Shown in pieces: positions 28,125 through 63,740 of a DNA stretch of 64,000 nucleotides (positions are counted from its first letter, which is position 1; each line of letters opens with the position of its first letter). The notes beneath the pieces are model-generated. The model was not told the origin of the DNA, ran no database searches, and saw only the letters and a list, made by a program, of their open reading frames with translations. The stretch spans positions 1-64,000 of the forward strand of contig JAGBFH010000020.1 of NCBI GenBank assembly GCA_017936605.1, written 5' to 3'. A program made the position numbers and the translations under genes. Source of the stretch: Tidjanibacter sp. Lineage in GTDB: Bacteria; Bacteroidota; Bacteroidia; Bacteroidales; Rikenellaceae.

Positions 28125-28174
28125 CCCTCCCCTAAGTTAGGGGAGGGTGCCCGTAGGGCGGGAGAGGTCTGTTG
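28125..28174. repeat. 23-bp palindrome plus second hairpin
   Basis: Arms CCCTCCCCTAA and TTAGGGGAGGG around one base (28125-28147), then the hairpin GCCC-GTA-GGGC (28149-28159) and the shared tail GGGAGAGGTCTGTTG. A near copy is at 28314. Confidence 0.9.
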
Positions 28175-47459: not shown

Positions 47460-49061
47460 TTACTTTGTGACTCTCACCCAGTCGACATCCATCCAGCCGC
47501 CGTCGTTGGTCCTGCCGCTTGTGACGGCAAAGAGCCCGAACTTGGCGCCTATCCATTTGCCCTCCTTGGCCTTGAATGGCTTGCCTATGGGCTGGAAATT
47601 GCGGCCATACTCGGCCCAGTAGAACTGACACATAGCACCCTCGCTGACCACAACGCGCAGCAGCAACTGCTTCTCCTCGTTCCAGATGAGCTCCTCGTTC
47701 ACGACCTCCTCGGCACCCTTTTCGGCCTTGTAGCACTCGGTCTGGCGGAGCACAACGGAGCCGTTCTCCAGAGCCTCAAACGAGAGTGTCGCCAGGTCGC
47801 GGCCGTGGATTACTATGCCCGCACGGTCGCCTGCCACACCCGCGCGGAAGTCCACCTTTGCTGTGAATGTTTCAGCGGGGGCTGTGAGCTTCTGCGAGAG
47901 TATATTTTTGGCCTCCCAGAGGTTGTCGTAGGGCTGACAGTAGAGCCTCAGGTAGCCCTCGGGGGAGTGCATAGCCCAATCTCTTGAGGGGTTGCCGAAC
48001 CACTGCCACCACGCGCCAAGCGTGGAGCGGTTGAACTCGTCGCCCTCGGTGGGGGTTGTGATGGCCATAGGCTTGGAGGTGTGGGGCTTACGGTAGCTCG
48101 CCACAGGCTCGCCTATGCCGTCGCCGTTGCTATCCACACCCATCGTACACCAGCCATCCTCGGTCCAAGTCATAGGCTGAAGGTGTACGACCCTGCCGTA
48201 GGCGTAGCGGTCCTCGAAGTGTAGGAACCAACTATCGCCCGCTGTGTCGGTCACCCAGCCGCCCTGATGGGGGCCGTGGATCTCTGTGTCACCCTGATGG
48301 AGCACCTTGCGCCACTCATACTCTCCCAGAGGCTCACGCGAGCGCATAACCAGCTGCCAACCCTCCTTCACGCCTCCTGCGGGCGCGAAGATGTAGTACC
48401 ACCCGTCGCGCTTGTAGAACTTGGGTCCCTCGATGGTGGGGTTCTCGGCGTGGCCGTCGTGGATGAGCACCTCGGGGCCTATGAGCCTTTTGCCATCGGG
48501 CGACATCTCGCTTGCCGAGAGTATGCTCTTGAAGCCGGCCCTCGAGCCCGCCCAGGAGTGTACGAGGTAGGCCCTGCCGTCGTCGTCCCAGAGCGGACAG
48601 GGGTCAATCATACCCACTCCTGCCTCCACTAAATGGGGCTCACTCCAAGGGCCGCGAGGGTCCTTGCTCTCGACCATAAAGATGCCCACATCGGGGTCGC
48701 CCCAGTAGATGTAGTAGGTGTCGTTGTGGTGACGAATGGAGGGTGCCCACACGCCGTTGCCGTGCTGCTCCTGTATCCCCTCGGGGCGGTAGGAGTCCAC
48801 CGCACCCACAATCTCCCAGTTCACAAGGTCTGTGGAGTGGAGGATTTGCAGTGCGGGCAGACAGTCAAACGACGAGGAGGTCATCCAGTAGTCCTCGCCC
48901 ACGCGAATCACATCGGGGTCGGAGTAGTCGGCGTGGAGTATGGGGTTGCGGTAGGTGCCGTCCCCCTGGTCTGCCACCCACACAAGGCTCCTGCCCTGCG
49001 CCATAATCGTCACGGCGCAGAGCATCGCAAACATATTAGTTATAAGTAATTTAATTTTCAA
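47460..49061 (-). CDS. glycoside hydrolase family 43 protein
   Basis: A 533-residue secreted enzyme with a signal peptide (about 1-21) and a five-bladed beta-propeller GH43 domain. The predicted base is Asp48 in YSDPDV, the pKa modulator Asp153 in MIDPCPLWDDDG, and the acid Glu211 in TIEGPKFYKRDG. A C-terminal beta-sandwich (from about residue 330: GDEFNRSTLGAWWQW) is of the type found in GH43 xylosidase/arabinofuranosidase members. Likely substrates are arabinose, xylose or galactose side chains of pectin or xylan; the exact subfamily cannot be fixed. It lies 170 bp after uxaA on the same strand, separated by repeats, and probably ends the uronate unit. Confidence 0.92.
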   Translation of the reverse strand: MKIKLLITNMFAMLCAVTIMAQGRSLVWVADQGDGTYRNPILHADYSDPDVIRVGEDYWMTSSSFDCLPALQILHSTDLVNWEIVGAVDSYRPEGIQEQHGNGVWAPSIRHHNDTYYIYWGDPDVGIFMVESKDPRGPWSEPHLVEAGVGMIDPCPLWDDDGRAYLVHSWAGSRAGFKSILSASEMSPDGKRLIGPEVLIHDGHAENPTIEGPKFYKRDGWYYIFAPAGGVKEGWQLVMRSREPLGEYEWRKVLHQGDTEIHGPHQGGWVTDTAGDSWFLHFEDRYAYGRVVHLQPMTWTEDGWCTMGVDSNGDGIGEPVASYRKPHTSKPMAITTPTEGDEFNRSTLGAWWQWFGNPSRDWAMHSPEGYLRLYCQPYDNLWEAKNILSQKLTAPAETFTAKVDFRAGVAGDRAGIVIHGRDLATLSFEALENGSVVLRQTECYKAEKGAEEVVNEELIWNEEKQLLLRVVVSEGAMCQFYWAEYGRNFQPIGKPFKAKEGKWIGAKFGLFAVTSGRTNDGGWMDVDWVRVTK

Positions 49062-49231: not shown

Positions 49232-50719
49232 TTATAAGGTTACTCCCGTCTTGAAGATAGCAACCTCCTTGAAGCCCGTCTGCTCGTGTTTGAGCAGCTG
49301 GCCATTTGCGGTGGCGAGAATCTTATCCACAAACCTCTTCAGGAGTGCTTCGGGCTCCTCGTCCTCCACGAGAGTGCCGGCATTGAAGTCTATCCAGCCA
49401 TTCTTGAACTCATAGAGGCGCGTGTTGGTCGAAATCTTCATTGTGGGCACAAAACTGCCAAAGGGGGTGCCACGACCAGTGGTGAAGAGCACCATCTGAC
49501 AGCCGCTCAGAGCCAGTGCCGACGAGGCAACAAGGTCATTGCCGGGGGCTTGCAGCAGATTGAGGCCGCGCTTAACTACGGGGTCGGTGTAGGAGAGCAC
49601 ATCCACAACCGTGCCTGCGCCGCCCTTCTGCACACAACCGAGCGATTTCTCCTCGAGGGTGGTGATGCCGCCCTTCTTGTTGCCGGGCGAGGGATTCTCG
49701 TATATGGGCTGGTTGTAACTCTTGAAGTAGCCCTTGAAGTCGTTTATGAGGCATACGGTCTGGTCGAAAACATCCCTGCTCTCGGCCCTGTCCATAAGTA
49801 TTGTCTCGGCACCGAACATCTCGGGCACCTCGGTGAGGATGGTAGTGCCGCCCTGCGAGATGAGCCAGTCGGATAAGAGGCCCACCAGAGGGTTGGCCGT
49901 AATGCCCGAAAAGCCGTCGCTGCCGCCACACTTAAGACCTATTTTGAGCTTCGACAGAGGCTGTGGGGTGCGCTTGTCGCTGCGGGTGAGCTCCACAAGC
50001 TCGCCACACACCTTCACGCCCTCCTCAATCTCGTCGTCGACCTCCTGTGCCACGATGAATCTTACCCTCTCGTGGTCCCAGGAGCCAATCTCCTTCTGGA
50101 ACTCGCTCACCTGGTTGTTCTCACAACCCAGACCCAACACGAGGATGGCACCTGCGTTGGGGTGGTGGACCATAGCGGCCAGTGCGCGGCGCGTATTGCG
50201 GTGGTCGTCACCCAGTTGCGAGCAACCGTAGGGGTGGCTGTAGACCCTCACATCGTCCAGATGGGAGCAGTCCATCTCCTCCCTCACGCGTCTGGCAATG
50301 GCCTCGGCCTGACCGTTCACGCAGCCCACCGTGGGGATAATCCACAACTCGTTGCGGATGCCCATATCGCCATTTTTCCTCTCGTAGCCCATCACCATAC
50401 GGCTGTCGGCGGGGTACTCTTTGGGGGCAATCTTGGGTGTGTAGGTATACTCAATCTCGTCCGAGAGGTTGGTCTTGATGTTGTGGGAGTGTATCCACTC
50501 GCCCTTATGAATTGGGCGTGTGGCGTGACCTATGGGGTAGCCATACTTGATGACATCCTCGCCCTCGGCAATATCCCTGAGAGCCACCTTGTGACCCTTG
50601 GCGATGGGCTCCGCGAGGGTGACCTTTTGGCCTCCTACCTCAATCACTTCGCCCTCGGCAAGGTCGTCCAGAGCGATAGCAACATCGTCGGCCTCGTTAA
50701 TCTTTAGGTATCGTTTCAT
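49232..50719 (-). CDS. uxaA: altronate dehydratase UxaA
   Basis: A 495-residue altronate dehydratase that makes 2-keto-3-deoxygluconate from altronate in galacturonate catabolism. The N-terminal SAF domain (about 1-75) is followed by the large UxaA/GarD catalytic part with VHPYGCSQLGDDHRNTRRAL (as SHPYGCSQLGD here), GLGCENNQ and KCGGSDGFSGITANP. Conserved Cys residues support the metal site. It is the third gene of uxaC-uxaB-uxaA, 19 bp after uxaB. The intergenic repeats after it suggest that some transcription continues into GH43. Confidence 0.95.
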   Translation of the reverse strand: MKRYLKINEADDVAIALDDLAEGEVIEVGGQKVTLAEPIAKGHKVALRDIAEGEDVIKYGYPIGHATRPIHKGEWIHSHNIKTNLSDEIEYTYTPKIAPKEYPADSRMVMGYERKNGDMGIRNELWIIPTVGCVNGQAEAIARRVREEMDCSHLDDVRVYSHPYGCSQLGDDHRNTRRALAAMVHHPNAGAILVLGLGCENNQVSEFQKEIGSWDHERVRFIVAQEVDDEIEEGVKVCGELVELTRSDKRTPQPLSKLKIGLKCGGSDGFSGITANPLVGLLSDWLISQGGTTILTEVPEMFGAETILMDRAESRDVFDQTVCLINDFKGYFKSYNQPIYENPSPGNKKGGITTLEEKSLGCVQKGGAGTVVDVLSYTDPVVKRGLNLLQAPGNDLVASSALALSGCQMVLFTTGRGTPFGSFVPTMKISTNTRLYEFKNGWIDFNAGTLVEDEEPEALLKRFVDKILATANGQLLKHEQTGFKEVAIFKTGVTL

Positions 50720-50738: not shown

Positions 50739-52175
50739 TTACAACATTTTCTTCAGTGCCGCAGCCATACCCTCCGCGAGGATGCTCTTCACATAGCCGG
50801 CAGCCTTCTCAACAAAGGGGGTAACCTCGGTGAAATCCACAGTCCAGATGTCGCGGTTCTCAACGATGGCCGCTACGGTAGCGTCAATATCGTCGTTGTT
50901 CCACACCTTGCGGATGAAGGCGATGTGCTCGGGGGTGTCGTCGGGCTCAAATGCCACGGTGCCGCTATAGAGGGTAAGAAGGGCAGCGAAGGTGAACATC
51001 TCCTTCTCGGCCACCTTGCCCGCCTTCTTCCAGTTGTCCAGAACGGTGGGGAAGTTGCGGGTCTCCCATTTGGAGAGCGAGTTGAGCGAGATGGTCTTGA
51101 GCATATGGCGGATGTAGGGGTTGTAGAAACGCTCCAGAATACCTGCCGCAAACTCCTTCAGCTCGGCCTGATCCTCCTCAATCATAGGGATAACCTCCTC
51201 CTCGACCATTGTGTTGATGAACTTCTCCAGGTCGGGGGTGTTGAATGCGTCCATAACGGTCTCGCAACCCATCTGCAAACCGATGGGCACCATACCTGTG
51301 TGGGAGCCGTTGAGGATGCGTACTTTCTTGTCGCGGAACTGCTTGATGGTGGGCATAAAGATTACGTGGAGGCCGGCCTTGTCGAGGGGCAGACGGCGCT
51401 GCACCTCCTTGTAGCCGGGGCCGCCGATAGCCCAGAGGTGGTAGAACTCGGCCTTCACCACGAGGTTGTCGTTGAAGCCAATCTCCTCCTTAATCTCGTT
51501 GATATTTTCGCGGGGGAAGCCGGGAACGATGCGGTCTACGAGGGTGTCGCAGAAGTGGCAGTGATTCTCCACCCAGTGGATGAAATCCTCGCCCAGCTTG
51601 TTGTACTCGGCGTGACGGAGCACATACTCCCTCAGGGTCGAGCCGTTGTTCTCGATGAGCTCACAGCAGATGATGCAGAGGCCCTTTGTGGGGTCGCCCT
51701 CGAAGTGTTTGAAACGCTTGTACAGCAGGGCGGTCATCTTTGCGGGATAGCTCTTTGGGGGGAGTGCCCAGAGGTCGTCGCCCTCCTCGTAGCGGATACC
51801 CGCCTCGGTGGTGTTGGAAACGGTAGCCTCCAACTCGGGCGAGAGGAAGATGCGCTCGTAGGCCGCGTAGTCGGTATAGGGGTTGATGGCGCACTGCACG
51901 CTCCTGACGAGGCGGATGTCCTTGACGGGCTGTTTCTCCTTCACACCCTCGAGATAGACATGGTAGAGGCAATCCTGACCCTCCAACATCTCGGCCATAC
52001 CTTTGTCAATAGGCTGCACGATAGCCACGCCGTGGTTCATAACGCCTGCCTCGTTGGCCTTGTCGATTTGCCAATCCACAAAGGCGCGTAAGAAGTTACC
52101 CTCGCCAAACTGAAGAATCTTAATGGGAAGTGCGGGTTTCTCTACATTCTGTTTATTTAGTTCTTTGATAGCCAT
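50739..52175 (-). CDS. uxaB: tagaturonate reductase (altronate oxidoreductase) UxaB
   Basis: A 478-residue long-chain mannitol-dehydrogenase-family enzyme reducing tagaturonate to altronate with NADH. The N-terminal nucleotide motif LQFGEGNFLRAFVDWQID and the central substrate block RILNGSHTGMVPIGL are typical of UxaB and separate it from mannonate enzymes. Length is as expected. It lies 21 bp after uxaC and 19 bp before uxaA. Together the three convert galacturonate to 2-keto-3-deoxygluconate; the kinase and aldolase for the last steps are not in the window. Confidence 0.95.
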   Translation of the reverse strand: MAIKELNKQNVEKPALPIKILQFGEGNFLRAFVDWQIDKANEAGVMNHGVAIVQPIDKGMAEMLEGQDCLYHVYLEGVKEKQPVKDIRLVRSVQCAINPYTDYAAYERIFLSPELEATVSNTTEAGIRYEEGDDLWALPPKSYPAKMTALLYKRFKHFEGDPTKGLCIICCELIENNGSTLREYVLRHAEYNKLGEDFIHWVENHCHFCDTLVDRIVPGFPRENINEIKEEIGFNDNLVVKAEFYHLWAIGGPGYKEVQRRLPLDKAGLHVIFMPTIKQFRDKKVRILNGSHTGMVPIGLQMGCETVMDAFNTPDLEKFINTMVEEEVIPMIEEDQAELKEFAAGILERFYNPYIRHMLKTISLNSLSKWETRNFPTVLDNWKKAGKVAEKEMFTFAALLTLYSGTVAFEPDDTPEHIAFIRKVWNNDDIDATVAAIVENRDIWTVDFTEVTPFVEKAAGYVKSILAEGMAAALKKML

Positions 52176-52196: not shown

Positions 52197-53606
52197 TTAA
52201 AACTTAAAGAAATTCTTTGCATTGTTGTAGCTGATATCCTCGACCATCTTGCCGATGAAGTCGAGTTCGCTTGCGGGCAGCAGCCCCTGCTCCACATCGT
52301 TGCCCAGCAGGTTGCAGAGCGTGCGACGGAAGTACTCGTGACGGGGGTAGGAGAGGAAGCTGCGGCTGTCGGTGAGCATACCCACAAAGCGGCTCAGCAG
52401 GCCCAGCAGCGAGAGGGCGTTCATCTGCTTCTCCATACCGTCTTTCTGGTCGAGGAACCACCAGCCGCTGCCGAACTGAATCTTGCCGGGGCCGTAGCGA
52501 CCGTCCTGGAAGTTGCCGAGCATTGTGGCAATCATCTCGTTGTCGCGGGGGTTGAGGTTGTAGATGATGGTCTTGGTGAGCTTGTCCTCGCGGTCCAGCA
52601 GGTCGAAGAACTTGGACATATTCTTTGCCACGGTGAAGTCACCAATGGAGTCGAAACCGGTGTCGGGGCCGAGCTGACGGAACATACGGCTGTTGTTGTC
52701 GCGGATTGCGCCATAGTGGAACTGCTGTGTCCAGCCGCTCTTGTGGTCCATAATCGCTTCCTCCACCATCATTGCGGTCTTGTACTTGCGAATCTCCTCG
52801 GGCGAGAGCTGCTCGCCGCCATATACCCTCTGGAAGAGGCGCTCAATCTCGGCGTGGGTGTAGTCCTCGGCATAGAACTCCTCGATGCCGTGGTCCGACA
52901 GACGGCAACCTACGCTCTCGAAGAAGTCGTGGCGCACCTGAAGGGCCTGGAGTACATCGTCAAACGACTTGATTTCCACACCGCTCACCTCCGCCAGGCG
53001 GTCGATGTAGGCGCGGAAGCCCGCGGGGTTGTCCACAGCCATAGCCTTGTCGGGGCGCCAGGTGGGGAGCATCTTCACGCCAAAGTTGTCCTTGGCGGTC
53101 TTGATGTGGTGCTCGAGCGAATCTACGGGGTCGTCGGTGGTGCAGACGGTCTCCACATTGTAGTGGAGCATCAGACCGCGTGCGGTCCTCTCGGGGGTCT
53201 GCAACATTGCGGTGCAGTGGTCATAAATCTCACGCGCTGTGGAGGGGTTCAGGAGCTTGTCCACACCAAAGGCGGTCTTGAGCTCCAGGTGGGTCCAGTG
53301 GTAGAGGGGGTTGCGCATAGTGTAGGGCACCGTCTCTGCCCACTTCTCGAACTTCTCCCAGTCGGAGGTCTCTTTGCCTGTACAGTAGCGCTCATCGACA
53401 CCATTGGTGCGCATTGCACGCCACTTGTAGTGGTCGCCCTCGAGCCAGATGCGCGAGAGGTTTTCGAACTTGTGGTCGGAGGCCACATACTCGGGGATGA
53501 GGTGGCAGTGGTAGTCGATGATGGGCATCTTTGCTGCGTGCTCGTGGTAGAGCCTCTGGGCCGTTTCGGTCTGCAACAGGAAGTTTTCGTCGTTAAACTG
53601 TTTCAT
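52197..53606 (-). CDS. uxaC: glucuronate/galacturonate isomerase UxaC
   Basis: A 469-residue uronate isomerase of the amidohydrolase superfamily, converting galacturonate to tagaturonate or glucuronate to fructuronate. MPIIDYHCHLIPE carries the metal-like His pair, and DDPVDSLEHH, HYGAIRDNNSRMF and FGSGWWFLDQKDGM are conserved. Because uxaB and not uxuB follows, galacturonate from pectin is the likely substrate. It is the promoter-proximal gene, with a candidate -7 box at 53658-53665 and an operator at 53694-53727 that is shared with the SusC promoter. Confidence 0.96.
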   Translation of the reverse strand: MKQFNDENFLLQTETAQRLYHEHAAKMPIIDYHCHLIPEYVASDHKFENLSRIWLEGDHYKWRAMRTNGVDERYCTGKETSDWEKFEKWAETVPYTMRNPLYHWTHLELKTAFGVDKLLNPSTAREIYDHCTAMLQTPERTARGLMLHYNVETVCTTDDPVDSLEHHIKTAKDNFGVKMLPTWRPDKAMAVDNPAGFRAYIDRLAEVSGVEIKSFDDVLQALQVRHDFFESVGCRLSDHGIEEFYAEDYTHAEIERLFQRVYGGEQLSPEEIRKYKTAMMVEEAIMDHKSGWTQQFHYGAIRDNNSRMFRQLGPDTGFDSIGDFTVAKNMSKFFDLLDREDKLTKTIIYNLNPRDNEMIATMLGNFQDGRYGPGKIQFGSGWWFLDQKDGMEKQMNALSLLGLLSRFVGMLTDSRSFLSYPRHEYFRRTLCNLLGNDVEQGLLPASELDFIGKMVEDISYNNAKNFFKF

Positions 53607-53657: not shown

Positions 53658-53665
53658 TAAAAATA
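53658..53665 (-). promoter_or_regulatory. candidate -7 box TATTTTTA of the uxaCBA operon
   Basis: It differs from TAnnTTTG by the last base, as expected for an activator-dependent promoter. It lies 52 bp before the start codon and exactly 34 bp from the operator, as at the SusC promoter. Confidence 0.5.
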
Positions 53666-53693
53666 CAAAACTTTCCACTATCCGCAATGTGAA

Positions 53694-53727
53694 TTTTCGC
53701 CAGTTTGGTAGGAATTTTTGCCACCCC
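53694..53727 (-). promoter_or_regulatory. direct-repeat operator upstream of uxaC
   Basis: GCCA at 53699 and GCCACCC at 53720 are 21 bp apart, each preceded by TTTTC or TTTTT. The same arrangement is found at 63713/63734 upstream of the SusC gene. Confidence 0.7.
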
Positions 53728-53789
53728 CAGTCTGGAGCGACAAAAAACCTACTGATGAGCGTAGACCGTAGACCGACTACCGTCGACCG

Positions 53790-54060
53790 ACAATAAGGTC
53801 TTTAAGGTCACTAAGGTCTTTAAGGTCCTTAATGCCCTTTTGCCCTCACCCTCCCCTAAGTTAGGGGAGGGTCCGCGGAGCGGGGGAGAGGTCTGTTGGG
53901 AGTAGAGAAAGGGCCAAAAGGGCTAAAAGGGCCAAAAGGGCCAAAAGGGCCAAAAGGGCTTATTGGGCCTATAAGTCCTATAAGTCCCATAAGTCCCATA
54001 AGTCCCATAGGCCCCATAAGTCTTATAAGCCCCATAAGCCCTATAGGCCCCATTTTATCT
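53790..54060. repeat. 9-bp repeats and 23-bp palindrome cassette upstream of uxaC
   Basis: TTAAGGTCC-type units (53790-53840), the palindrome with second hairpin CCGC-GGA-GCGG and tail GGGAGAGGTCTGTTG (53849-53896), GGCCAAAAG units (53910-53960) and CCCATAAGT/CTTATAAGC units (53960-54055). The frames read as Gly-Pro-Lys or Gly-Leu-Met collagen-like repeats but show no start signals. No gene is supported in 53728-54157. Confidence 0.9.
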
Positions 54061-54110
54061 TTAGGGCTGCCCCCCCATTCCTCCCAACTCTCTCATCACA
54101 CTCCCTCCCC

Positions 54111-54152
54111 AAAAACAACCAGAGGGCTGCTCCGAAGAGCGGCCCTCTGGTT
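54111..54152 (-). terminator. terminator after the 54.2-kb gene (copy 1 of a pair)
   Basis: AACCAGAGGGC-GCTC and GAGC-GCCCTCTGGTT pair around CGAA, then a T run on the minus strand (GTTTTTGGGG). It is nearly identical to 54862-54906. Confidence 0.9.
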
Positions 54153-54157
54153 GTATA

Positions 54158-54793
54158 TTAAGGAATCTCGATAGATAGCGAGTTGTCGTCTGGGCGTGGA
54201 AGAGGGGTGCCAATGGGTATCTGATCTTCGGCGGTATGTTCTTCTACTTCAAAAGCACAACCCAAGAAAATATAGTCCAACGCTGCGCCAATCGCGGTGG
54301 GCTCAAATGCCAACTCTCTTTTTATCCTTAGCTCTATTGCCCTGAATTGTTCTATAGGTATTTTAGCAATGGGGTTGTCTGGACTTGGCAGGTAGCTAAA
54401 GTAAACATCTGTTATAATTCCACTTTGGGAAGATATGTTGAGGGTGATATAGATGGTTTCGCCTTGCAACATATTTACATACTCCCCAAGCTCGTTAGTG
54501 ATAATTTCATCGAGCAGTAATTTTTTGCTGTAGGAATTATACACAACACTCCTGTTTTCAATGTCGGCAACGGCCCCGTCGTTCGCCCAGACTGGAAAAT
54601 CGCGTCCAGGATGATTGTCGACATTGTAAATATTGACTTGAAAATCGAGTAGTCTATCCACTATGTAGGTGCAGTCGCTGAGCTGAACGGTGTCAGCTGT
54701 AAAGTCCTCGGTATTCTCAAATGGATAGCGTTGAGCCTCAAGCAATGTTGTTGAACACAAAATACAACAAATGGTAAGTAGCGCTTTTCTCAT
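54158..54793 (-). CDS. hypothetical secreted protein between duplicated terminators
   Basis: About 211 residues from Met at 54793 (MRKALLTICC); Met at 54799 is an alternative and the frame is open to 54853. A signal peptide is present (about 1-20, with CCILCSTTLLEAQ), with Cys residues inside the hydrophobic stretch but no clear lipobox. The mature part is acidic with several LRIKRE-like strands and one late Cys. I do not recognise it. Its codons are richer in A/T than those of the flanking PUL genes. Copies of one terminator flank it at 54111-54152 and 54862-54906, so it looks like an insertion into the tail of the PUL transcript. Confidence 0.7.
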   Translation of the reverse strand: MRKALLTICCILCSTTLLEAQRYPFENTEDFTADTVQLSDCTYIVDRLLDFQVNIYNVDNHPGRDFPVWANDGAVADIENRSVVYNSYSKKLLLDEIITNELGEYVNMLQGETIYITLNISSQSGIITDVYFSYLPSPDNPIAKIPIEQFRAIELRIKRELAFEPTAIGAALDYIFLGCAFEVEEHTAEDQIPIGTPLPRPDDNSLSIEIP

Positions 54794-54861
54794 ACCCATA
54801 TATAGAGTTTTATTCTCCGTAAAGTTAGTAAAAAAACCTACATCCCGTATCATTGCTCCCC

Positions 54862-54906
54862 AAAAACAACCAGAGGGCCGCTCCGAAGAGCAGCCCTCTG
54901 GGGTTT
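54862..54906 (-). terminator. PUL terminator (copy 2 of a pair)
   Basis: CAGAGGGCCGCTC and GAGCAGCCCTCTG pair around CGAA with GTTTTTGGGG following on the minus strand. It lies right after the stop codon of the surface lipoprotein gene. Confidence 0.9.
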
Positions 54907-54930
54907 GGGAATCTCAAATTAGTCGGTGGC

Positions 54931-57900
54931 CTACTTGGTGTAGGTGTAGCTAATCGAGAAGAGGTTGATACCGCTATTGCCACTATAGATGTAGATCTTC
55001 GAGCCTGCAACTGCGGTGGTGCAGTCTACCTCGAATACCTCGGGAGTTGCGGTCTTATCGGGGGTGGGGATGGATGCAATCTCGGTGCCATCAACAGCTA
55101 CGCAGATGGGGCGAGCCTTCGTGGTGGTGTCACCCGAAGCGATAACATCCAACTTGAGGGTACCTGCTGCGGGAGCCTCGAAGATGAGAACTGCCTTGCC
55201 GGTGTTACCCGTGCCACCAAACTGTACGCGGGTCTGAAGTTCACCTGCCGAGTTGTTGTTCTGGCCGAATTTGAACTTACCACCACCAAGCACGAACTGC
55301 AAGCCGTCGTAGGTGAAGCCGTCGGCATCAACCGAGAGTTTGCCACCTGCGGTCATCTTGGTAGTAACGAAAGTAGCGTCGATATTGCCGGTGTCGCTTG
55401 CGCAACCGTTCACCCAGATATCGTCGAAGGCTGCGTGGCCCCACTCGATAGTCTGCTCCTGGGGAGCGGAGATGTAGGTGTACTCGATTGCGTAGAAGCG
55501 CAGACCACCCGAAGGATAGATGTAGACGGTCTGGTTGTTGGCCTCGATGTCATACTCAACCCAAGTGGGAGTTGCGTGGCCACCGGGCTGCTCCTGAACG
55601 GCGCCCTCCTCGCCAACCTGAACTTTCACCATACGGGTGAGGTCCTCCGAACCGGTAGCACCAACCTTAACCCTCAGAGTACCATTAGCAGGTGCGGTGA
55701 AGGAGAAGCAACGCTGGCTGATAGAACCACCACCATTGGGCTGGAGGTAGTTACCAACGTCCTCATTGAGGTAGCCACGGATGTTCTTGCCACCTGCAAC
55801 AACCCTCAGGCCATCAACGGTCACATCCATATCGGTCGAACCGGTGCTACCCAGAGGTGCGAGCCAATCGAATACCTCGGTCTCCCAGATGGTGTCCGAG
55901 AAGTTCCACGAGAGGGTCACCTCGCCACCAACTACCACCTTGTTGATCTGGAGGGTAGCAACGCCAGCCTCCGAGGGGAGCCACTTGCTGGAGGTAGCTA
56001 CGGGGATAGCCACAACCTTCAGGTCGTACTCGCCAATGTAGAGAGCTGCAACCTCCTCTGCGGGGATGGTGAACGAAAGCTCGGTCTGCTCGGTGGTTGC
56101 GCCACGCCACGAAACCTCATAGTGGTCGGCGTTCTCAACGGCTTCCCACGAAGCGGTAACTGCCATTGCGGTACCCTCGTCAACCTTGCGGTTGTCGAAC
56201 GATACGGCGGGAGCCTTCAGAGCTACGGCTACAGCGTCGGGAGTGAGGTCCTGAGTCCACTCGATGGACTTGAGGGTCACGCCACCTGCGGCCATAACAT
56301 AGATATTATTCTCACCCTTGAGGTCGCCCAGCAGAACCTTGTGGGGCTCGCCGTCGGCCAGCAGGGTGTAGCGGTCGCCACCTGCCAATACCTGTACGCC
56401 CTCAACACCGTTGGCACCCTCGGCAGTAACAACTACTGCACCGTAGCCACTGGTGAGCACGCCTACAGCACCATAGAGAGGCTCGCCTGCTGCATCAACC
56501 ATACCTGCCTCAGCGAAGTAGATACCCTCGCCAAGAACAACCTCCGAGGGAGCCTCGGCCGAAGCGTAGATGCGTGCGTTGCCAATGATGGTGTTGGCCG
56601 TGAGAACCTCGCCGTCATAGATAGCCTTGGCGGTGAAATCCCAGGTGTAGGGCTCTGCCACAACCTCGAGCTCGGTAGCCCTCACGGGAGGCTCGGGAAT
56701 AGCAGCGTTCCACCAACGGGGGTCACCTGCCTGTTTTGCGGAGATGTCGCTGGTCTCGTTGAGGTAGAGTTTGCCTGCGCCGGAGCTCTGGCAAGGATCA
56801 ACCTCCAGGAGTACGCCACCCTCTGCCAATGCTGCAGCCTCATCGAAAGCAGCACCTGCAATGGTCTGAGCGGCCGATACGAACCAACCAGCACCTACAT
56901 TGTAGAAGTAGTTGCCCGAGCATACGGGAGCGTTGGTGTCGGAGGAGTTGCGCACAAGGCGTACGAACTCGGCACCGGGAGCCTCACCGTCGCTATACTC
57001 GTTGAGGAATACATTCTTGGTACAGAGAATCGACTCGGGAGTGGTCTTGGTCCTCACACCGAAGATACCAGCGTTGTTGGAGCTGGTCTTGGTGGTGGTC
57101 ACAAAGTTGAAGGTACAATTCTTCACCTCCACGAGGCCTGCATCTGCGCTATCGCTAACCCTCAGGAAGGTACGAGCAGCAGCGTAGAAGGTAGAGTTCT
57201 TCACCACAATCGAGGGGTGAACACCATTACGAACATCGATGAAGTCGCCACCAACAGTACCGTCGGCGTTCACATCGTGTACATAGCAACCGTCAATGAG
57301 GATGCTACCGCAATCGGCACCTGCTACATTGTTGTAGTAGAGGCCCTTGGTGTAGCCGTAAACCTCGCAATTGATGAGCTCGAAGGCCTCCATAGCAGCC
57401 TTTGCGGTGAGGATGTGGCCCTTGGTCTCGGCACCAGCAACAGCGTATACTGCGCCGTCGAGAACCAGGTCCTCAAGGTGGATGGTGGTAACAGCGCCGC
57501 TGGGCTGGATATCCAGACCGGTCACGATGGGTTTCTTGCCATCGGTAGTGGTCTCACCAACCAACCAGAGGTTACAACCGATAGTTGCGGTGCTGGGAAG
57601 GTCGTATGCTACGCCATCGTTGTACTCGAGTTTGAGCTTAACATCGCCAACGGTGCCGGTGATAGCGTTCACGATAGCCTCAACGGTGTTTACGGTGTTG
57701 AAGCCCGAGTCGCTGGGGCGGGTGAAGGCGGTGATGCTACCGCGGTTGCAAGCCTTACCGTAGATGAGGGTGAGCTTGTAGTCGGTGCAAGCCTCCAGAC
57801 CGCTGGCGGTAGCGGTGCGAGCTGCAATCATCTCTGCCGAAAGGGCAACATCCACGCTCTTCTTGGAGCTGTCCGACACGGGAGTAGCGCGGAGGGTGGT

Positions 57901-58437
57901 GAGGTCTGCTGCGTCCTCGCCCTCGTTCCAGGTTACGGTGATGCTATTAACGGTGCGCTCCGAAACGGTCAGCTTGAACGACGAGCGAACAGCCGAAGTT
58001 GCGAAAGCCTCCTCGAGGTAGGTCCATTTGGAGTCCTCGACATTCTCGGCGTGACCTTTAACGCGCACGAAGTAGCTCTTGTCTACCTCGAGGCCGCTTA
58101 CGATGTGGGGAATCTCGGTGATGTTGGTCTCCACCTTTGCGGGCTCCACAGCGTCGTAGTTGGGTGCCAAAGCAACCTCTTCGCCGGTCTCCTGGTCGAT
58201 GCCGGTCTCGGTTGATTCGAATACCTCAACTGTGTAGTACTCAGTACCCTGCATTGCATCCCAAGTGAGCTCAACATCGGTACCCACGGATGCAACGATT
58301 TCTGCTTCGAGATTGGTAGGTGCAAGGCAACGATTCAGGGTGATGCCATCAACAACCTCTGCGGGGTCGTTGGCACAGCCCACCATCGCCATAGCCATCG
58401 AAGCAAACAGTGCTATATTCTTAATAAACTTTTTCAT
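54931..58437 (-). CDS. pectin-PUL surface lipoprotein with Fn3, DUF4957/DUF5123-like and repeated C-terminal modules
   Basis: A 1168-residue lipoprotein (signal ending MVGC, Cys21). Two fibronectin-III-like domains (about 38-235) precede a region (about 245-545) with DUF4957/DUF5123-like beta-helix features: TGLDIQPSGAVTTIHLEDLVLDG, VVKNSTFYAAARTFLRV and NVFLNEY. Such proteins lie beside SusD in pectin loci and bind glycan at the cell surface. Then come a module with YTWDF...IEWTQD, another Fn3-like domain (about 745-860) and two further modules of about 150 residues with LSWNFSDTIW...IEYTY and IEWGHAAFDDIW...ISYTY, which look like tandem relatives. It is the third PUL gene after SusC and SusD. 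Domain limits are by eye. Confidence 0.85.
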   Translation of the reverse strand: MKKFIKNIALFASMAMAMVGCANDPAEVVDGITLNRCLAPTNLEAEIVASVGTDVELTWDAMQGTEYYTVEVFESTETGIDQETGEEVALAPNYDAVEPAKVETNITEIPHIVSGLEVDKSYFVRVKGHAENVEDSKWTYLEEAFATSAVRSSFKLTVSERTVNSITVTWNEGEDAADLTTLRATPVSDSSKKSVDVALSAEMIAARTATASGLEACTDYKLTLIYGKACNRGSITAFTRPSDSGFNTVNTVEAIVNAITGTVGDVKLKLEYNDGVAYDLPSTATIGCNLWLVGETTTDGKKPIVTGLDIQPSGAVTTIHLEDLVLDGAVYAVAGAETKGHILTAKAAMEAFELINCEVYGYTKGLYYNNVAGADCGSILIDGCYVHDVNADGTVGGDFIDVRNGVHPSIVVKNSTFYAAARTFLRVSDSADAGLVEVKNCTFNFVTTTKTSSNNAGIFGVRTKTTPESILCTKNVFLNEYSDGEAPGAEFVRLVRNSSDTNAPVCSGNYFYNVGAGWFVSAAQTIAGAAFDEAAALAEGGVLLEVDPCQSSGAGKLYLNETSDISAKQAGDPRWWNAAIPEPPVRATELEVVAEPYTWDFTAKAIYDGEVLTANTIIGNARIYASAEAPSEVVLGEGIYFAEAGMVDAAGEPLYGAVGVLTSGYGAVVVTAEGANGVEGVQVLAGGDRYTLLADGEPHKVLLGDLKGENNIYVMAAGGVTLKSIEWTQDLTPDAVAVALKAPAVSFDNRKVDEGTAMAVTASWEAVENADHYEVSWRGATTEQTELSFTIPAEEVAALYIGEYDLKVVAIPVATSSKWLPSEAGVATLQINKVVVGGEVTLSWNFSDTIWETEVFDWLAPLGSTGSTDMDVTVDGLRVVAGGKNIRGYLNEDVGNYLQPNGGGSISQRCFSFTAPANGTLRVKVGATGSEDLTRMVKVQVGEEGAVQEQPGGHATPTWVEYDIEANNQTVYIYPSGGLRFYAIEYTYISAPQEQTIEWGHAAFDDIWVNGCASDTGNIDATFVTTKMTAGGKLSVDADGFTYDGLQFVLGGGKFKFGQNNNSAGELQTRVQFGGTGNTGKAVLIFEAPAAGTLKLDVIASGDTTTKARPICVAVDGTEIASIPTPDKTATPEVFEVDCTTAVAGSKIYIYSGNSGINLFSISYTYTK

Positions 58438-58489
58438 ATCTTTCCTTTTACTTATTAGTTATAATAGGTAAGTCTTTGGTCTGCTTCTA

Positions 58490-60274
58490 TTAGTAACCAA
58501 AATCGTTCACCAGCGAACCCTGCGAGTTGATAATGGTTGCCTGGAAGATGGGCCAGTACATATGCTGGTTGGGATCGGCGGTGTAGACGGTCGAAGCCCT
58601 CTCCTCGGTCTGACCATCGGTATCCTTGGTGAGATAACCACCCTTCTTGTTCCACTCCTCGCCCTCGGGAGCTACGCGCTCGCCATTAAGGCCGTAGAAC
58701 TCGATACCCTCGGCAGTCTCGCGGTACCATACATCACCCTCGGGGTTGAGGAATGCGTAGTCGCCGCTGAGGCTCTTAAGGTCGCGGTAGTCGGCAATCG
58801 ACTCGTCGAGTTTGTCCTTGAGCATATTCCAACGGATGAGGTCACCCTTGCGGAGAAACTCGCCCACGAACTCGAGCTTGCGCTCCTCAACGATGGCGTT
58901 GAACATAGCCTCTTTATTGCCAAGAGCTGCCACATAAGCCGCTGCGCTGCTGCCGGTAGCCCTCTCGCGCACCTCAAGGAGGTAATCTTTGGCCTTGTCG
59001 AGCTGACCGAGCTCATTGGCAACCTCGGCTGCCATCAGCAGAATGTCCGAATAGCGCATAACGATGGGTTTGATACCGTCGTCGTTGCCGCCGGTGTAGG
59101 GCTGTTTCTCCATCCACTGGAAACGATACTTGCCAAAGTACCAGTTCTCGATGCCCGAAGGCTCAATTACATCGTCTTTCTCATACTTGAAGTTCACGCA
59201 CGAGAGGTCACGACGCTGGTCATCCTTGGTGTAGTCGAAATAGAGGGTGGGGGTGGGGCCTACAGAGCCACCACGGTTCGAACCGTTGATGTTGGTGCGG
59301 ATGGCGAAGGTGTAGTTCCAACGGCCACGAGCGTCACCAAAGGGAATCACAAACAGAGTCTCCTTGCCTGCGGTGAGGTCGAAGTTGTTGAAATCTCTCC
59401 AGTACTGCTCGTAGTCCTCATAGAGGCTTGCCGAGCCACTCTGGATAACCTCCTCGAGTTTCTCGAGAACCTTGGGATAGAGCACCTCTTTGCTGAGCTC
59501 AGCATCGCTCGAGAGGCGGATGCTACCGGCGTCACCGGTACCTACCATACCATCCTCGGGACGGAGTGCATAGCCCGAAGCAGCCAGAGCGATACGAGCA
59601 TACAGACCGTTGGCAAAGTTTTTGTTCACGCGGTCGGTGGTCATCGTAGCGGCGGTGGTGCCGGCCCAGGGCAGATAGCCTGCTGCCTCGTCCAAGTCGG
59701 CCAGAATCTGTTTGTAGATTACATCGCGGTCGCTCTTGGGCAGATAGATGGTCTCCGACGAGATGGGCTCAAAACGAGCGGGAACATCGCCAAAGGCCTT
59801 CAGCAGCTCATAGTAGAGGAAAGCACGCAGGGTGAGCGACTCGCCCAGAAGGTAGGCCATATCGGCTTTGTTCTCGATGTCGCCATATTTCCTCAGGCCA
59901 CTGATACAGATATTTGCGCGCTCGATACCTGCGTAAATCTCATTGTAGGGACCGTTGTCGAGGTTGAGCTGTGCATTGTTTACGGTAATGGCATAGGTTG
60001 CAATCTCCGATTTGTTGTCGATAGTGGTCGCAACATACCACTCAGCATCGGTATTGAAGCCATACCAGGGAAGGAAACGACCTCGGTAGTTGTTGGTGTG
60101 ACCGAAGGTCTCCGAGATTGAGAATACATTATACTCTGCCAAAGTATAGTTCGAGAAGACAACCGACTCGTCGAATGCCGACTTGGTCTCGCTCTCGAGA
60201 ATGTCGCTACACGAGAAGAGTGTAGTCGAGAGGGCAATCAAAAGTATGTATGCAAATTTTTTCATTTCTTTCAT
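58490..60274 (-). CDS. RagB/SusD family nutrient-binding outer-membrane lipoprotein
   Basis: A 594-residue SusD-like lipoprotein (or 591 from the Met three codons later). The signal peptide ends in LFSC with Cys25 of the longer form. SusD hallmarks include the N-terminal DILESETKSAFDESVVFSN, the TPR region with LLGESLTLRAFLYYELLKAFGDVP, and the C-terminal MRYSDILLMAAEVANELGQ and VEERKLEFVGEFLRKGDLIRW. It caps the SusC transporter encoded 14 bp upstream and binds oligosaccharides at the surface. The following surface lipoprotein suggests a pectic ligand. Confidence 0.96.
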   Translation of the reverse strand: MKEMKKFAYILLIALSTTLFSCSDILESETKSAFDESVVFSNYTLAEYNVFSISETFGHTNNYRGRFLPWYGFNTDAEWYVATTIDNKSEIATYAITVNNAQLNLDNGPYNEIYAGIERANICISGLRKYGDIENKADMAYLLGESLTLRAFLYYELLKAFGDVPARFEPISSETIYLPKSDRDVIYKQILADLDEAAGYLPWAGTTAATMTTDRVNKNFANGLYARIALAASGYALRPEDGMVGTGDAGSIRLSSDAELSKEVLYPKVLEKLEEVIQSGSASLYEDYEQYWRDFNNFDLTAGKETLFVIPFGDARGRWNYTFAIRTNINGSNRGGSVGPTPTLYFDYTKDDQRRDLSCVNFKYEKDDVIEPSGIENWYFGKYRFQWMEKQPYTGGNDDGIKPIVMRYSDILLMAAEVANELGQLDKAKDYLLEVRERATGSSAAAYVAALGNKEAMFNAIVEERKLEFVGEFLRKGDLIRWNMLKDKLDESIADYRDLKSLSGDYAFLNPEGDVWYRETAEGIEFYGLNGERVAPEGEEWNKKGGYLTKDTDGQTEERASTVYTADPNQHMYWPIFQATIINSQGSLVNDFGY

Positions 60275-60288
60275 CGTTTTTTAGAGGT

Positions 60289-63200
60289 TTAGAAAGTCAG
60301 ATTCACACCTACTACAACGCCTCTGCTCTTGGGGTATGCCGAGTAGTCAACACCGGGAGTAAGAGGAGTAGCACGACGAGTATCTACCTCGGGGTCGAAG
60401 CCCGAATAGCTGGTCAGCAGGAAGAGGTTGGTGCCCGAAACATAAAGACGGAGGTTCTCAACACCAATCTTCTGGGTGAGCTCTTTGGGAATGGTGTAGC
60501 CCAAAGTTGCACTCGTCAGACGCAAGAACGAACCGTTCTCAACGGCTGCGTCGCTGAATACGGCGTTGCCGATGAAGGGCGAGCCTGCCTTACCCTCGTT
60601 GAGAGCTGCAAGAGCCTCGGGGTCGGTGATGAACTCACCGGTGTTCCAGTCGATGTTGGTCCAACGCTGGTCGGTGGACATCGACGAGAGCAGGTTGCGG
60701 TTCTGATACTTACGAGTCGAGGTGAACTCAATAAGGTTTGCATTATAAATCTGGTTGCCAATGACAGCATTGAAGTTGGCCGAGAAGTCGAAGTTACCCC
60801 AGTAACCCGAGATGATAAGACCACCGGTCCAGTCTGCCAGAGCGTTACCGATGACGGTCTTGTCGGCAACGGTCAGTTTGCCGTCACCCTCCATACCGAT
60901 AACATTACCCTCCTCGTCGAGAACCTCAACGGTGGGCTGGTCTTTGTACTTGCGAGCACCAGGCATCAGGTAGGTCGAGCCGATGATGTCGGAGCAATCT
61001 ACAACGCCCTCTTTCAGTACCCAAGCGCCATCTACATAGTTGAAATCGTCAACGGTGTAGTAGCCGTCGCTGATGTAGCCATACATATTGCCCAGAGGCT
61101 GGCCTACCTCAACAACATAGTCGGTACCAATCTCGGTCGAAGCCCACATACTCTGCGACTCGATGCGATCCAGACCACCGAGGGTCACAACTTTATTCTT
61201 GTTGTAGGATGCGTTGGCCGAGATGGTCAGACCTGCGTTCTTGGTCTGGAATACGGTGTAGTTGATGGTAGCCTCGAAACCGCTGTTCTGGGTCTCACCC
61301 ATATTGCGGTACTGGTTTGCATAACCACTACCCGAGGTGGGGAACTGAATCAGCAGGTCCTTGGTGTTGTTCTTGTAGTACTCAACCGAACCGCTCAGCT
61401 TGCCACCAAACAGGGCGAAGTCCAAACCGAGGTTGTGCGAAATGGTGGTCTCCCATTTCAAATCGGGGTTGGGCATAGTGTTACCTGCCGACCAGTAGGT
61501 CACGCCCTGCGAAATCCAGGTAGTAGCGTTGGCCTTGAAGGTCTGGAGGGTCTGGCCCGAGGGGATGTTGTTGTTACCTGCGGTACCGTAGCTATAGCGC
61601 AGTTTCAGGTTGTCGAGAATGTCGATATCCTGGAGTACGGGGAGCTCCGAAAGACGCAGTGCCACTGCTGCCGAGGGGAAGTAGCCCCAACGGTTGGCGC
61701 CGAGGAACTTCGACGAACCGTCGGCACGCATAGTAGCCGAAGCCGAAACGATGCCTTTCCAGTCGTAGTTTACGCGACCGAAGAACGAAAGGAGTTTGTC
61801 GTCGGGATTGTAGTACTGGTTGGTCGAAACGGCGGTACCCGAAGCCATAAAGTTCCAAGCCATATCTGCATCGAAGAAGGTGGGAAGACCCTCAACCCAA
61901 GCAGTGAGCTTATTGGAGTTGGTGTAGAGGTACTCCTGACCGACAAGAACATCGAGTTTGCTATCCTCCCAATCCAGAGCCTCACCGATGTTGTAGTGCA
62001 GGGTGTTGGTATTGCGGAGTTTGGTGCGGTCGTAGTCGGTGTACTGTGTTGCGGGCTGACCCTTGAGGGTAGCGTTGTTGTTCACATAGTAGGTGGTAAG
62101 ACCATAGAACCTGTTGTCGCCCTGCGAGTAGCTGTCCAAGCCACCGTCAATCTTCAGATTGAGGCCTTTGGCGAGTTTGAGGTTGATTGCACCGTTGATG
62201 TTCCAGTTCTGACGGTTACGCTTCGAGTCGTTGTCGGCTACCGACAGCATAGGGGGAGCGTTGTCGCCATAGTCCTCCTCGAGGTCGCTGTTCTCTACGG
62301 AGCTCTCCAGGGGGATGGGGGTGTAACCGATGGCGTGTTTCAGACGACCGTTACCCGAGGTCGAACCGCTATCGTTCACCGAGTTGGCGCCGCTACCACG
62401 AACATTGGTGTCCGAGAAACGAACCGAGAAGTCAAACGAAACCTTGTTGCTGGGTTTGAATTTGGTCTTCAGGTTGAGGTTGTCACGAGTGTAGCTCGAG
62501 CCCTTCATAATGGCGTTGTCGCCCATATGGGAGTAGCTTGCGGTCCAGCTGAACTCTTTGCTACCACCCGAGAGGGAGATGTTGTGGTTGTTGGTAGTGC
62601 CCTGATTGCCAAATACCTGTGCTACATAGTCATTCTTGGGCTGACCGGTATAGAGGTCGATGTCGCAGAACTGACCGAAGTAGGGCTCATAGGCGCTCTC
62701 CACATTGTTGCGAATCATTGCGAGCTCATACTGCAACTTCACGAACTCATCTGTATCGAGAGTGGTGAGGGCATCTTTGTTGGCGATGCTCTTCCAACCG
62801 GTGTAGCCGTTGTAGGTTACCGACAGGCGGCCTTCGCCACCGCTCTTGGTGGTAACGATGATTACACCATTTGCACCACGCGAACCGTAGATAGCGGTCG
62901 AGAAGGCGTCTTTGAGGACATCGATGCTCTGGATATCGCTCGAGGGGATGTCGTTGATGCTCTCAACGGGGAATCCGTCGACGATGTACAGAGGCGAGGA
63001 GTCCTGGGTAATCGAACCGCCACCACGAACGCGGATTTTGATGTCTGCGTCGGGGTCACCCTCGGTGGTGGTAACCTGCACACCTGCCATCTTACCGGAG
63101 AGGGCCTCCGATACGCTGGTCACGGGCTGTGAGGCAATAGTCTCGGCACCAACCGAGGCTACCGAACCGATAAGGTCTTTCCTCTGAACGGTAGCATAAC

Positions 63201-63528
63201 CCACAACAACCACATCCTCCATAACCTCTGCGTCACTCTCGAGAGTGATTTCGAAGTAGGTGCGGTTGCCGATGGCTACCGTCTGGTCCTTCATACCGAG
63301 GTAGGAGAAGACCAGTTTCTGCTGCGGAGCGTTGGGGACATTGAGGCTCCAGTCGCCCGATACGCCGGTTGTCGTACCGTTGCTGGTGCCGTCAACAACA
63401 ACAGACGCGCCAATGATTGGCTGGCCTGCTGTGTCCTTAACAATACCGCTAACCTTCTGAGCTTCGGCTGCGAGAGTCAAGCTCAAACCCAAAATAAGTA
63501 GGGTAAACTTTCGTGTAAAGTTTCTCAT
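60289..63528 (-). CDS. SusC/RagA family TonB-dependent transporter
   Basis: A 1079-residue outer-membrane transporter. It has a signal peptide (about 1-23), a carboxypeptidase-regulatory-like domain (about 25-100: GIVKDTAGQPIIGASVVVDG), a TonB-box region near MEDVVVVGYATVQRKD, the plug domain with the SusC hallmark YIVDGFPVESINDIP and SIDVLKDAFSTAIYGSRGANGVIIVTTK, then a 22-strand barrel ending in Phe. It imports oligosaccharides in partnership with SusD using energy from a TonB-ExbBD system such as that at 12-14 kb. It is first in the PUL transcript and has a promoter with an operator shared with uxaC. Confidence 0.97.
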   Translation of the reverse strand: MRNFTRKFTLLILGLSLTLAAEAQKVSGIVKDTAGQPIIGASVVVDGTSNGTTTGVSGDWSLNVPNAPQQKLVFSYLGMKDQTVAIGNRTYFEITLESDAEVMEDVVVVGYATVQRKDLIGSVASVGAETIASQPVTSVSEALSGKMAGVQVTTTEGDPDADIKIRVRGGGSITQDSSPLYIVDGFPVESINDIPSSDIQSIDVLKDAFSTAIYGSRGANGVIIVTTKSGGEGRLSVTYNGYTGWKSIANKDALTTLDTDEFVKLQYELAMIRNNVESAYEPYFGQFCDIDLYTGQPKNDYVAQVFGNQGTTNNHNISLSGGSKEFSWTASYSHMGDNAIMKGSSYTRDNLNLKTKFKPSNKVSFDFSVRFSDTNVRGSGANSVNDSGSTSGNGRLKHAIGYTPIPLESSVENSDLEEDYGDNAPPMLSVADNDSKRNRQNWNINGAINLKLAKGLNLKIDGGLDSYSQGDNRFYGLTTYYVNNNATLKGQPATQYTDYDRTKLRNTNTLHYNIGEALDWEDSKLDVLVGQEYLYTNSNKLTAWVEGLPTFFDADMAWNFMASGTAVSTNQYYNPDDKLLSFFGRVNYDWKGIVSASATMRADGSSKFLGANRWGYFPSAAVALRLSELPVLQDIDILDNLKLRYSYGTAGNNNIPSGQTLQTFKANATTWISQGVTYWSAGNTMPNPDLKWETTISHNLGLDFALFGGKLSGSVEYYKNNTKDLLIQFPTSGSGYANQYRNMGETQNSGFEATINYTVFQTKNAGLTISANASYNKNKVVTLGGLDRIESQSMWASTEIGTDYVVEVGQPLGNMYGYISDGYYTVDDFNYVDGAWVLKEGVVDCSDIIGSTYLMPGARKYKDQPTVEVLDEEGNVIGMEGDGKLTVADKTVIGNALADWTGGLIISGYWGNFDFSANFNAVIGNQIYNANLIEFTSTRKYQNRNLLSSMSTDQRWTNIDWNTGEFITDPEALAALNEGKAGSPFIGNAVFSDAAVENGSFLRLTSATLGYTIPKELTQKIGVENLRLYVSGTNLFLLTSYSGFDPEVDTRRATPLTPGVDYSAYPKSRGVVVGVNLTF

Positions 63529-63671
63529 GGTTTTTTTGGTTAATTGTTAATGAAATTATTGGTTAATTGATGTGAATTTTCACGCTTTAGCACTCCTGGG
63601 GGTGCCTCTATCTAAGGTTAAAGAAATGAGTTTTGGTTGTTCGTTCGGTTATTCTGATGTAATCAGTATTG

Positions 63672-63679
63672 CAAATTTA
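63672..63679 (-). promoter_or_regulatory. -7 box TAAATTTG of the PUL
   Basis: A TAnnTTTG match 143 bp before the SusC start. It lies 34 bp downstream of the direct-repeat operator. The long 5' UTR (about 135 nt) may carry additional control. Confidence 0.6.
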
Positions 63680-63707
63680 CAATAAATACTTCGTATTTCA
63701 ATGGTAA

Positions 63708-63740
63708 AAATTGCCACTTTATGTGGATTTTTTGCCACCC
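63708..63740 (-). promoter_or_regulatory. direct-repeat operator upstream of SusC
   Basis: GCCA at 63713 and GCCACCC at 63734, 21 bp apart, with GGATTTTTTGCCACC matching the uxaC site almost base for base. Confidence 0.7.

Follow-up and report, generated by a model that had tools for sequence, protein, structure and literature searches.

What controls the genes for pectin import and for uronate breakdown in the gut bacterium Tidjanibacter sp. (Rikenellaceae), and do the two sets of genes share a regulator? We analyzed a window of 64,000 nucleotides (positions 1 to 64,000 of the forward strand of contig JAGBFH010000020.1, assembly GCA_017936605.1), which includes a uronate operon that begins with uxaC and the susC gene of a pectin locus. 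A sequence-only reading of this window had noticed a direct repeat, GCCA-N17-GCCACCC, upstream of both genes, and had proposed that a dimeric activator, such as a hybrid two-component system (HTCS) or another AraC-type protein, ties pectin import to galacturonate breakdown. From comparisons of sequences, we think it very likely that the repeats are operators of one membrane-bound sensor-regulator, the HTCS that is encoded nearby, which would control pectin import, depolymerization, and the cytoplasmic catabolism of uronates.

The repeats lie exactly where they had been placed (GCCA at 53699 and GCCACCC at 53720; GCCA at 63713 and GCCACCC at 63734), and the 34 bp from the start of GCCA to the near edge of the -7 box is exact in both cases (53699-53665 and 63713-63679). 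The boundaries had to be redrawn, however: the recognized unit appears to be the A-rich TGKCAAAAAATCC half-site and not GCCACCC, and relatives do not share the flanking CCC. On the coding (minus) strand, a 21-bp direct repeat, TGGCAAAAAWTCC-N8-TGGCRA..., stands before both uxaC and susC, and the conserved unit in the transcribed direction is TGKCAAAAAWTCC-N8-TGKCRAWWWTTMM. At both promoters, 24 bp separate the end of the operator from the -7 box. The elements are:

53690-53723, minus strand: uxaC operator, TGGCAAAAATTCC-TACCAAAC-TGGCGAAAATTCA, with half-sites at 53723-53711 and 53702-53690 (21-bp period)
53685-53687, minus strand: TTG of the presumed uxaC -33 element (from its position only), next to the operator and 22 bp before the -7 box
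53658-53665, minus strand: uxaC -7 box, TATTTTTA, at a position that is conserved in relatives
63704-63737, minus strand: susC operator, TGGCAAAAAATCC-ACATAAAG-TGGCAATTTTTAC, with half-sites at 63737-63725 and 63716-63704 (21-bp period)
63699-63701, minus strand: TTG of the presumed susC -33 element (from its position only), 22 bp before the -7 box
63672-63679, minus strand: susC -7 box, TAAATTTG, as read from the sequence

Both promoters have what is expected for the primary sigma factor of Bacteroidetes: a -7 box of the TAnnTTTG type, a fixed spacing, and a TTG near -33. Direct repeats with a period of two helical turns and a proximal half-site next to the -33 element fit an AraC-type dimer that would activate transcription from a position just upstream of the polymerase.

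Are these sites specific to the two promoters? By itself, the bare GCCA-N17-GCCACCC pattern is not significant: it has 4 matches in the genome, 2 of them unrelated, while a reversed control has 5. In contrast, specificity is high for the complete 34-bp site. If we allow up to 3 mismatches, a search of the 1.88-Mb genome for the full dyad, on which our genome-wide specificity rests, finds susC, uxaC, and one stray match with 3 mismatches; the control has 0 matches. The two operators in the window have weight-matrix scores of 36.2 and 32.8, as compared to a maximum of 16.8 in about 4 million positions from a Markov model and of 22.6 in actual sequence of other Bacteroidales (2.18 million positions). 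The operator is absent from the promoters of the genome's other six SusC genes that score above the cut-off. The sequence-only reading would have been undermined by random occurrence of the motif across the genome, which is not what the full-dyad search found. A chance resemblance between two A-rich promoter regions could be argued for from the bare pattern, which is no more frequent than its reversed control, but the full site is unique in the genome to these promoters and is kept across two genera at a fixed spacing. Given the full-dyad search, the conservation across genera, and the backgrounds for the matrix scores, we counted chance similarity as already refuted, and it is almost certainly not the explanation. 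Scans with the bare pattern and with TTTTTGCCACC gave mainly chance matches within genes, and we judged additional dyad matches in relatives, which were in genes or lacked a conserved context, to be chance as well.

Which protein would bind these sites? Just beyond the window, on the contig and strand that carry susC and upstream of that gene, is an operon that encodes a GH28 protein, a PelZ-like pectate lyase with fn3, a GDSL-pectinesterase, the HTCS, and a GH88 protein, in that order. The HTCS gene (C9:65086-69441, which is L091 2087-6442) encodes 1451 residues and is the only HTCS that we detected in the genome by a Y_Y_Y domain search and a homology search. As in other members of the family, Reg_prop propeller, Y_Y_Y, HisKA, HATPase_c, Response_reg, and HTH_18 (AraC) domains are in one chain, and the gene lies inside a polysaccharide utilization locus that contains susCD. 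The phospho-His and phospho-Asp motifs are intact. Across the orthologs of the HTCS (leaving out G035, whose open reading frame is in the wrong frame), the DNA-binding AraC domain is 73-86% conserved and the sensor is 38-57% conserved, as expected if the operator site is held constant. We also observed that the HTCS diverges much faster than its neighbors do (64% identity to the protein from G009, versus 88-96% for SusC and UxaC), with most of the divergence in the sensor.

Within the genus, we found uxaC in 12 other genomes and a relative of susC in 11. Of the relatives with the syntenic locus, just G000, G004, G007, G008, G009, and G018 carry the HTCS. In G006, G011, G012, and G014, the GH88 gene directly follows the pectinesterase gene and the HTCS gene is missing, although the locus is otherwise syntenic. 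In G013, which is the sister of the window genome (tree support 1.0), the contig opens within the pectinesterase gene, at its last codons, and GH88 comes next, so that the HTCS gene is missing as well. The operator is significant at both uxaC and susC in all six of the HTCS carriers, while none of the five congeners without the HTCS has a significant full operator, with borderline values for G013 (6/6 vs. 0/5, P = 0.0022, Fisher exact test, uncorrected for relatedness). The contrast is sharpest at uxaC, where G013 kept just 11 of 34 positions of the operator (32%) but 52 of 60 positions of the leader from the -7 box to the ATG (87%). In G009, which carries the HTCS and is more distant, 29 of 34 operator positions and 46 of 64 leader positions are kept. 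According to the tree, the HTCS was lost at least three times independently (in G013, in G011, and in the group of G006, G012, and G014), with weak support for the placement of G006, G012, G014, and G011. Judging by these genomes, the species that lost the HTCS sensor also lost the operator sites. A comparison of promoters in relatives, which had been proposed as a check, thus found the operator conserved at a fixed spacing from the -7 box in carriers, including at uxaC, and missing from the five congeners without the HTCS.

The same comparison bears on another explanation, which is that some other regulator, such as a LacI-family repressor of the UxaR/KdgR type or a Crp-like global regulator, independently governs the pectin locus and the uronate operon. 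In Bacteroides thetaiotaomicron, uronate catabolism is assigned to the LacI-family regulators KdgR, UxaR, and UxuR, and some uronate genes have a Crp-like motif (PMC3878776). However, the sites of LacI and Crp are inverted repeats. The palindrome expected for a KdgR, UxaR, or UxuR operator was not found at our sites, where the conserved unit is a direct repeat of two sites about 21 bp apart. This two-turn period is the published architecture for HTCS: Ravcheev et al. 2013 (PMC3878776) predicted HTCS operators as direct repeats with a mean spacing of 21 bp. The site also tracks the HTCS, both in the genus and in one Alistipes that lacks it (see below), and we saw no LacI-type gene among those annotated in the pectin cluster (a genome-wide search for LacI was not made). 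We consider a regulator of this kind quite unlikely.

To return to the HTCS, it has orthologs (44-49% identity) in a second genus, identified as Alistipes by the identical match that is obtained with G024 and with the locus of Alistipes sp. An66. We trained a matrix solely on the uxaC and susC sites of the window's genus and compared its scores for the held-out Alistipes promoters to 200 shuffles. The matrix beat all 200 shuffles for uxaC in 9 of the 10 genomes scored, for susC in 7 of 8 (the eighth had P ≤ 0.010), and for GH28 in 9 of 9. The period of the Alistipes operators is always 21 bp, and the distance to the -7 box is almost always 23-24 bp. In Alistipes, uxaC is far off in the genome and is not linked to the HTCS or the pectin locus, yet it has the operator; the one HTCS-less Alistipes that we examined (G272) has no uxaC site. 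Farther afield, we found no convincing copy of the operator in the closest HTCS gene neighborhoods of three Bacteroides genomes, and a TTGGC/GTGGC-N16/17-TGGC repeat was not found in the regions upstream of uxaC in Bacteroides or at other distant loci.

Alternatively, the HTCS might bind the susC and GH28 promoters, while the uxaC site belongs mainly to another AraC-type protein or is a functionless relic. The typical targets of HTCS are genes within the locus only, the uxaC sites of Alistipes are slightly different (YGGCAAATATTNT...), and two genomes (G036 and G225) have no uxaC site. On the other hand, the uxaC site is kept or lost along with the HTCS among the congeners, an intact copy of it was duplicated in front of another gene in G009, and it persists in Alistipes although uxaC has a different location. 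We consider this alternative unlikely. A shared HTCS that links pectin import to galacturonate breakdown, as had been proposed, is supported by the detection of just one HTCS in the genome, in the adjacent pectin operon, by the co-occurrence of the operator and the HTCS in the genus, and by the recurrence of the operator at the unlinked uxaC of Alistipes.

The operon that encodes the HTCS is probably part of the regulon as well. At the GH28 promoter of the window genome, the second half-site is perfect (TGTCAAAAAATCC) and lies 23 bp before TAAATTTG; unlike the uxaC and susC promoters, this promoter has no TTG 22 bp before the -7 box. The complete dyad is present at GH28 in G004 and in all nine of the Alistipes scored, so the HTCS probably regulates its own operon.

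Several observations weigh against regulation by the HTCS, or at least against parts of it. At GH28 in the window genome, the distal (first) half-site is weak, and P for the whole site is about 0.10. Wherever we found an ortholog of the HTCS, the operator is conserved upstream of genes of the locus, except at uxaC, and only there, in two HTCS carriers: Alistipes G036 and G225, which is more distant, have no detectable uxaC site. In G013, one half-site is left at susC (P = 0.03), and P = 0.045 at uxaC. The losses of the HTCS amount to few events, a different regulator may have been lost alongside it, and several of the genomes compared are incomplete metagenome-assembled genomes.

If the HTCS is the regulator, then pectin fragments would be imported by SusC/SusD, and the propeller of the HTCS would sense an oligogalacturonide in the periplasm. 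As in other members of its family, the HTCS would autophosphorylate and pass the phosphate to its own receiver domain. A dimer of its AraC-type domain would then bind two TGKCAAAAAATCC-type half-sites on the same face of the helix, at a distance of 21 bp (two helical turns). Positioned just upstream of -33, the HTCS would recruit RNA polymerase to the TAnnTTTG-type promoter and would act by activation and not by repression. The targets would be co-induced: susCD and the DUF4957 gene; the operon from GH28 to GH88, which implies autoregulation; and uxaCBA with the GH43 gene.

How does this compare to known systems? HTCS regulons are usually described as ending at the periplasm, with the released monosaccharides under separate regulators. 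The most similar system is HTCS_Rgu-1 (BT4111/BT4124), which is also an AraC-type HTCS in a pectin locus with susCD and pectinases as targets (PMC3878776). Its motif has two 12-bp sites and a 9-bp spacer, which gives the same 21-bp period of direct repeats (we compared the layout, not the letters of the motifs). However, the HTCS_Rgu-1 regulon comprises extracellular and periplasmic enzymes, with uronate catabolism under LacI-family regulators; in our genome, the HTCS operator is found at uxaCBA, an operon for cytoplasmic enzymes. Two more regulons, HTCS_Hep and HTCS_Fru (BT4663 and BT1754), concern different sugars and lack an operon for uronate isomerase, reductase, and dehydratase. According to a 2024 paper in mBio (PMC11253607), a response-regulator fragment of BT4124 binds the susCD promoter of its pectin locus in a gel shift, and its domain order, as given there, is identical to that of our HTCS. 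In Segatella copri, homogalacturonan raises uronate isomerase and tagaturonate reductase (PMC11784079), so co-induction of both sets of genes is known elsewhere, with no regulator shown in the parts of that paper that we read. Our literature search found no published HTCS binding site for Alistipes and its relatives. HTCS sites as 21-bp direct repeats are already published, while an HTCS regulon that reaches uxaCBA, and its correlated decay, are new. In our case, uronate catabolism in the cytoplasm appears to be under the direct, feed-forward control of a protein that senses pectin fragments. The operator is a defined and testable prediction of an HTCS binding site in Alistipes and relatives, and sister species with and without the HTCS offer a natural experiment in the decay or rewiring of a regulon that has lost its sole regulator.

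A lead for a fourth target is a reverse-oriented dyad that resembles the operator (score 22.9, L095 6801-6834), about 100 bp upstream of the start of kdgK-kdgA-kduI-kduD. G009 has a weaker reverse dyad (12.7) at the matching place and orientation upstream of kdgK. The reverse dyad shows no conservation in the remaining HTCS carriers, a forward-oriented site at kdgK is absent in 11 of the 11 genomes scored, and one outgroup match at 22.6 indicates that such a score can arise elsewhere. We judged GGTGGCAAAAA at L095 8161-8171, within the coding sequence of kdgA, to be a chance match. More speculatively, one HTCS of the Rikenellaceae might directly control the whole route from extracellular pectin to 2-keto-3-deoxygluconate, including the unlinked kdgK-kdgA-kduI-kduD, in place of the LacI-type uronate regulators of Bacteroides; upon loss of the HTCS, operators would decay at all targets and the pathway would be rewired. 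We consider this possible but somewhat doubtful.

The gene content indicates a utilization locus for pectin (of the homogalacturonan type) with a uronate operon attached. Its genes within the window are:

60289-63528, minus strand: SusC-like TonB-dependent transporter of the pectin locus (TIGR04056, above the cut-off)
58490-60274, minus strand: SusD-like surface glycan-binding protein (PF07980)
54931-58437, minus strand: large fn3 / DUF4957 / DUF5123 protein, presumed to be a surface protein of the locus (domain matches)
54158-54853, minus strand: DUF5043 protein, the last gene before the uxaC promoter (domain match)
52197-53606, minus strand: uxaC, glucuronate/galacturonate isomerase (PF02614, E = 3.7e-201; NCBIfam equivalog NF002794, above the cut-off)
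50739-52175, minus strand: uxaB, tagaturonate reductase (NF002969, above the cut-off)
49232-50719, minus strand: uxaA, altronate dehydratase (GD_AH_C, GD_AH_second, and SAF domains)
47460-49061, minus strand: GH43 glycosidase, the final gene of the presumed uxaCBA operon (PF04616, PF17851)

The duplication in G009 includes both the uxaC operator and the core promoter, and it lies before the DUF5043 gene (L207 1501-1532 and 2429-2460; G009:C38:39187 and 40115). This gene was apparently recruited as a separate unit of the regulon.

The window also has six exact copies of the palindrome CCTCCCCTAASTTAGGGGAGG, at 28126, 28315, 41168, 47323, 49114, and 53850 (0 expected from shuffling). The copy at 53850 adjoins arrays with a 9-bp period, AAAGGGCCA and TATAAGTCC, and upstream of kdgK there are arrays and a palindrome that resemble these. 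These look like a dispersed family of intergenic repeats.

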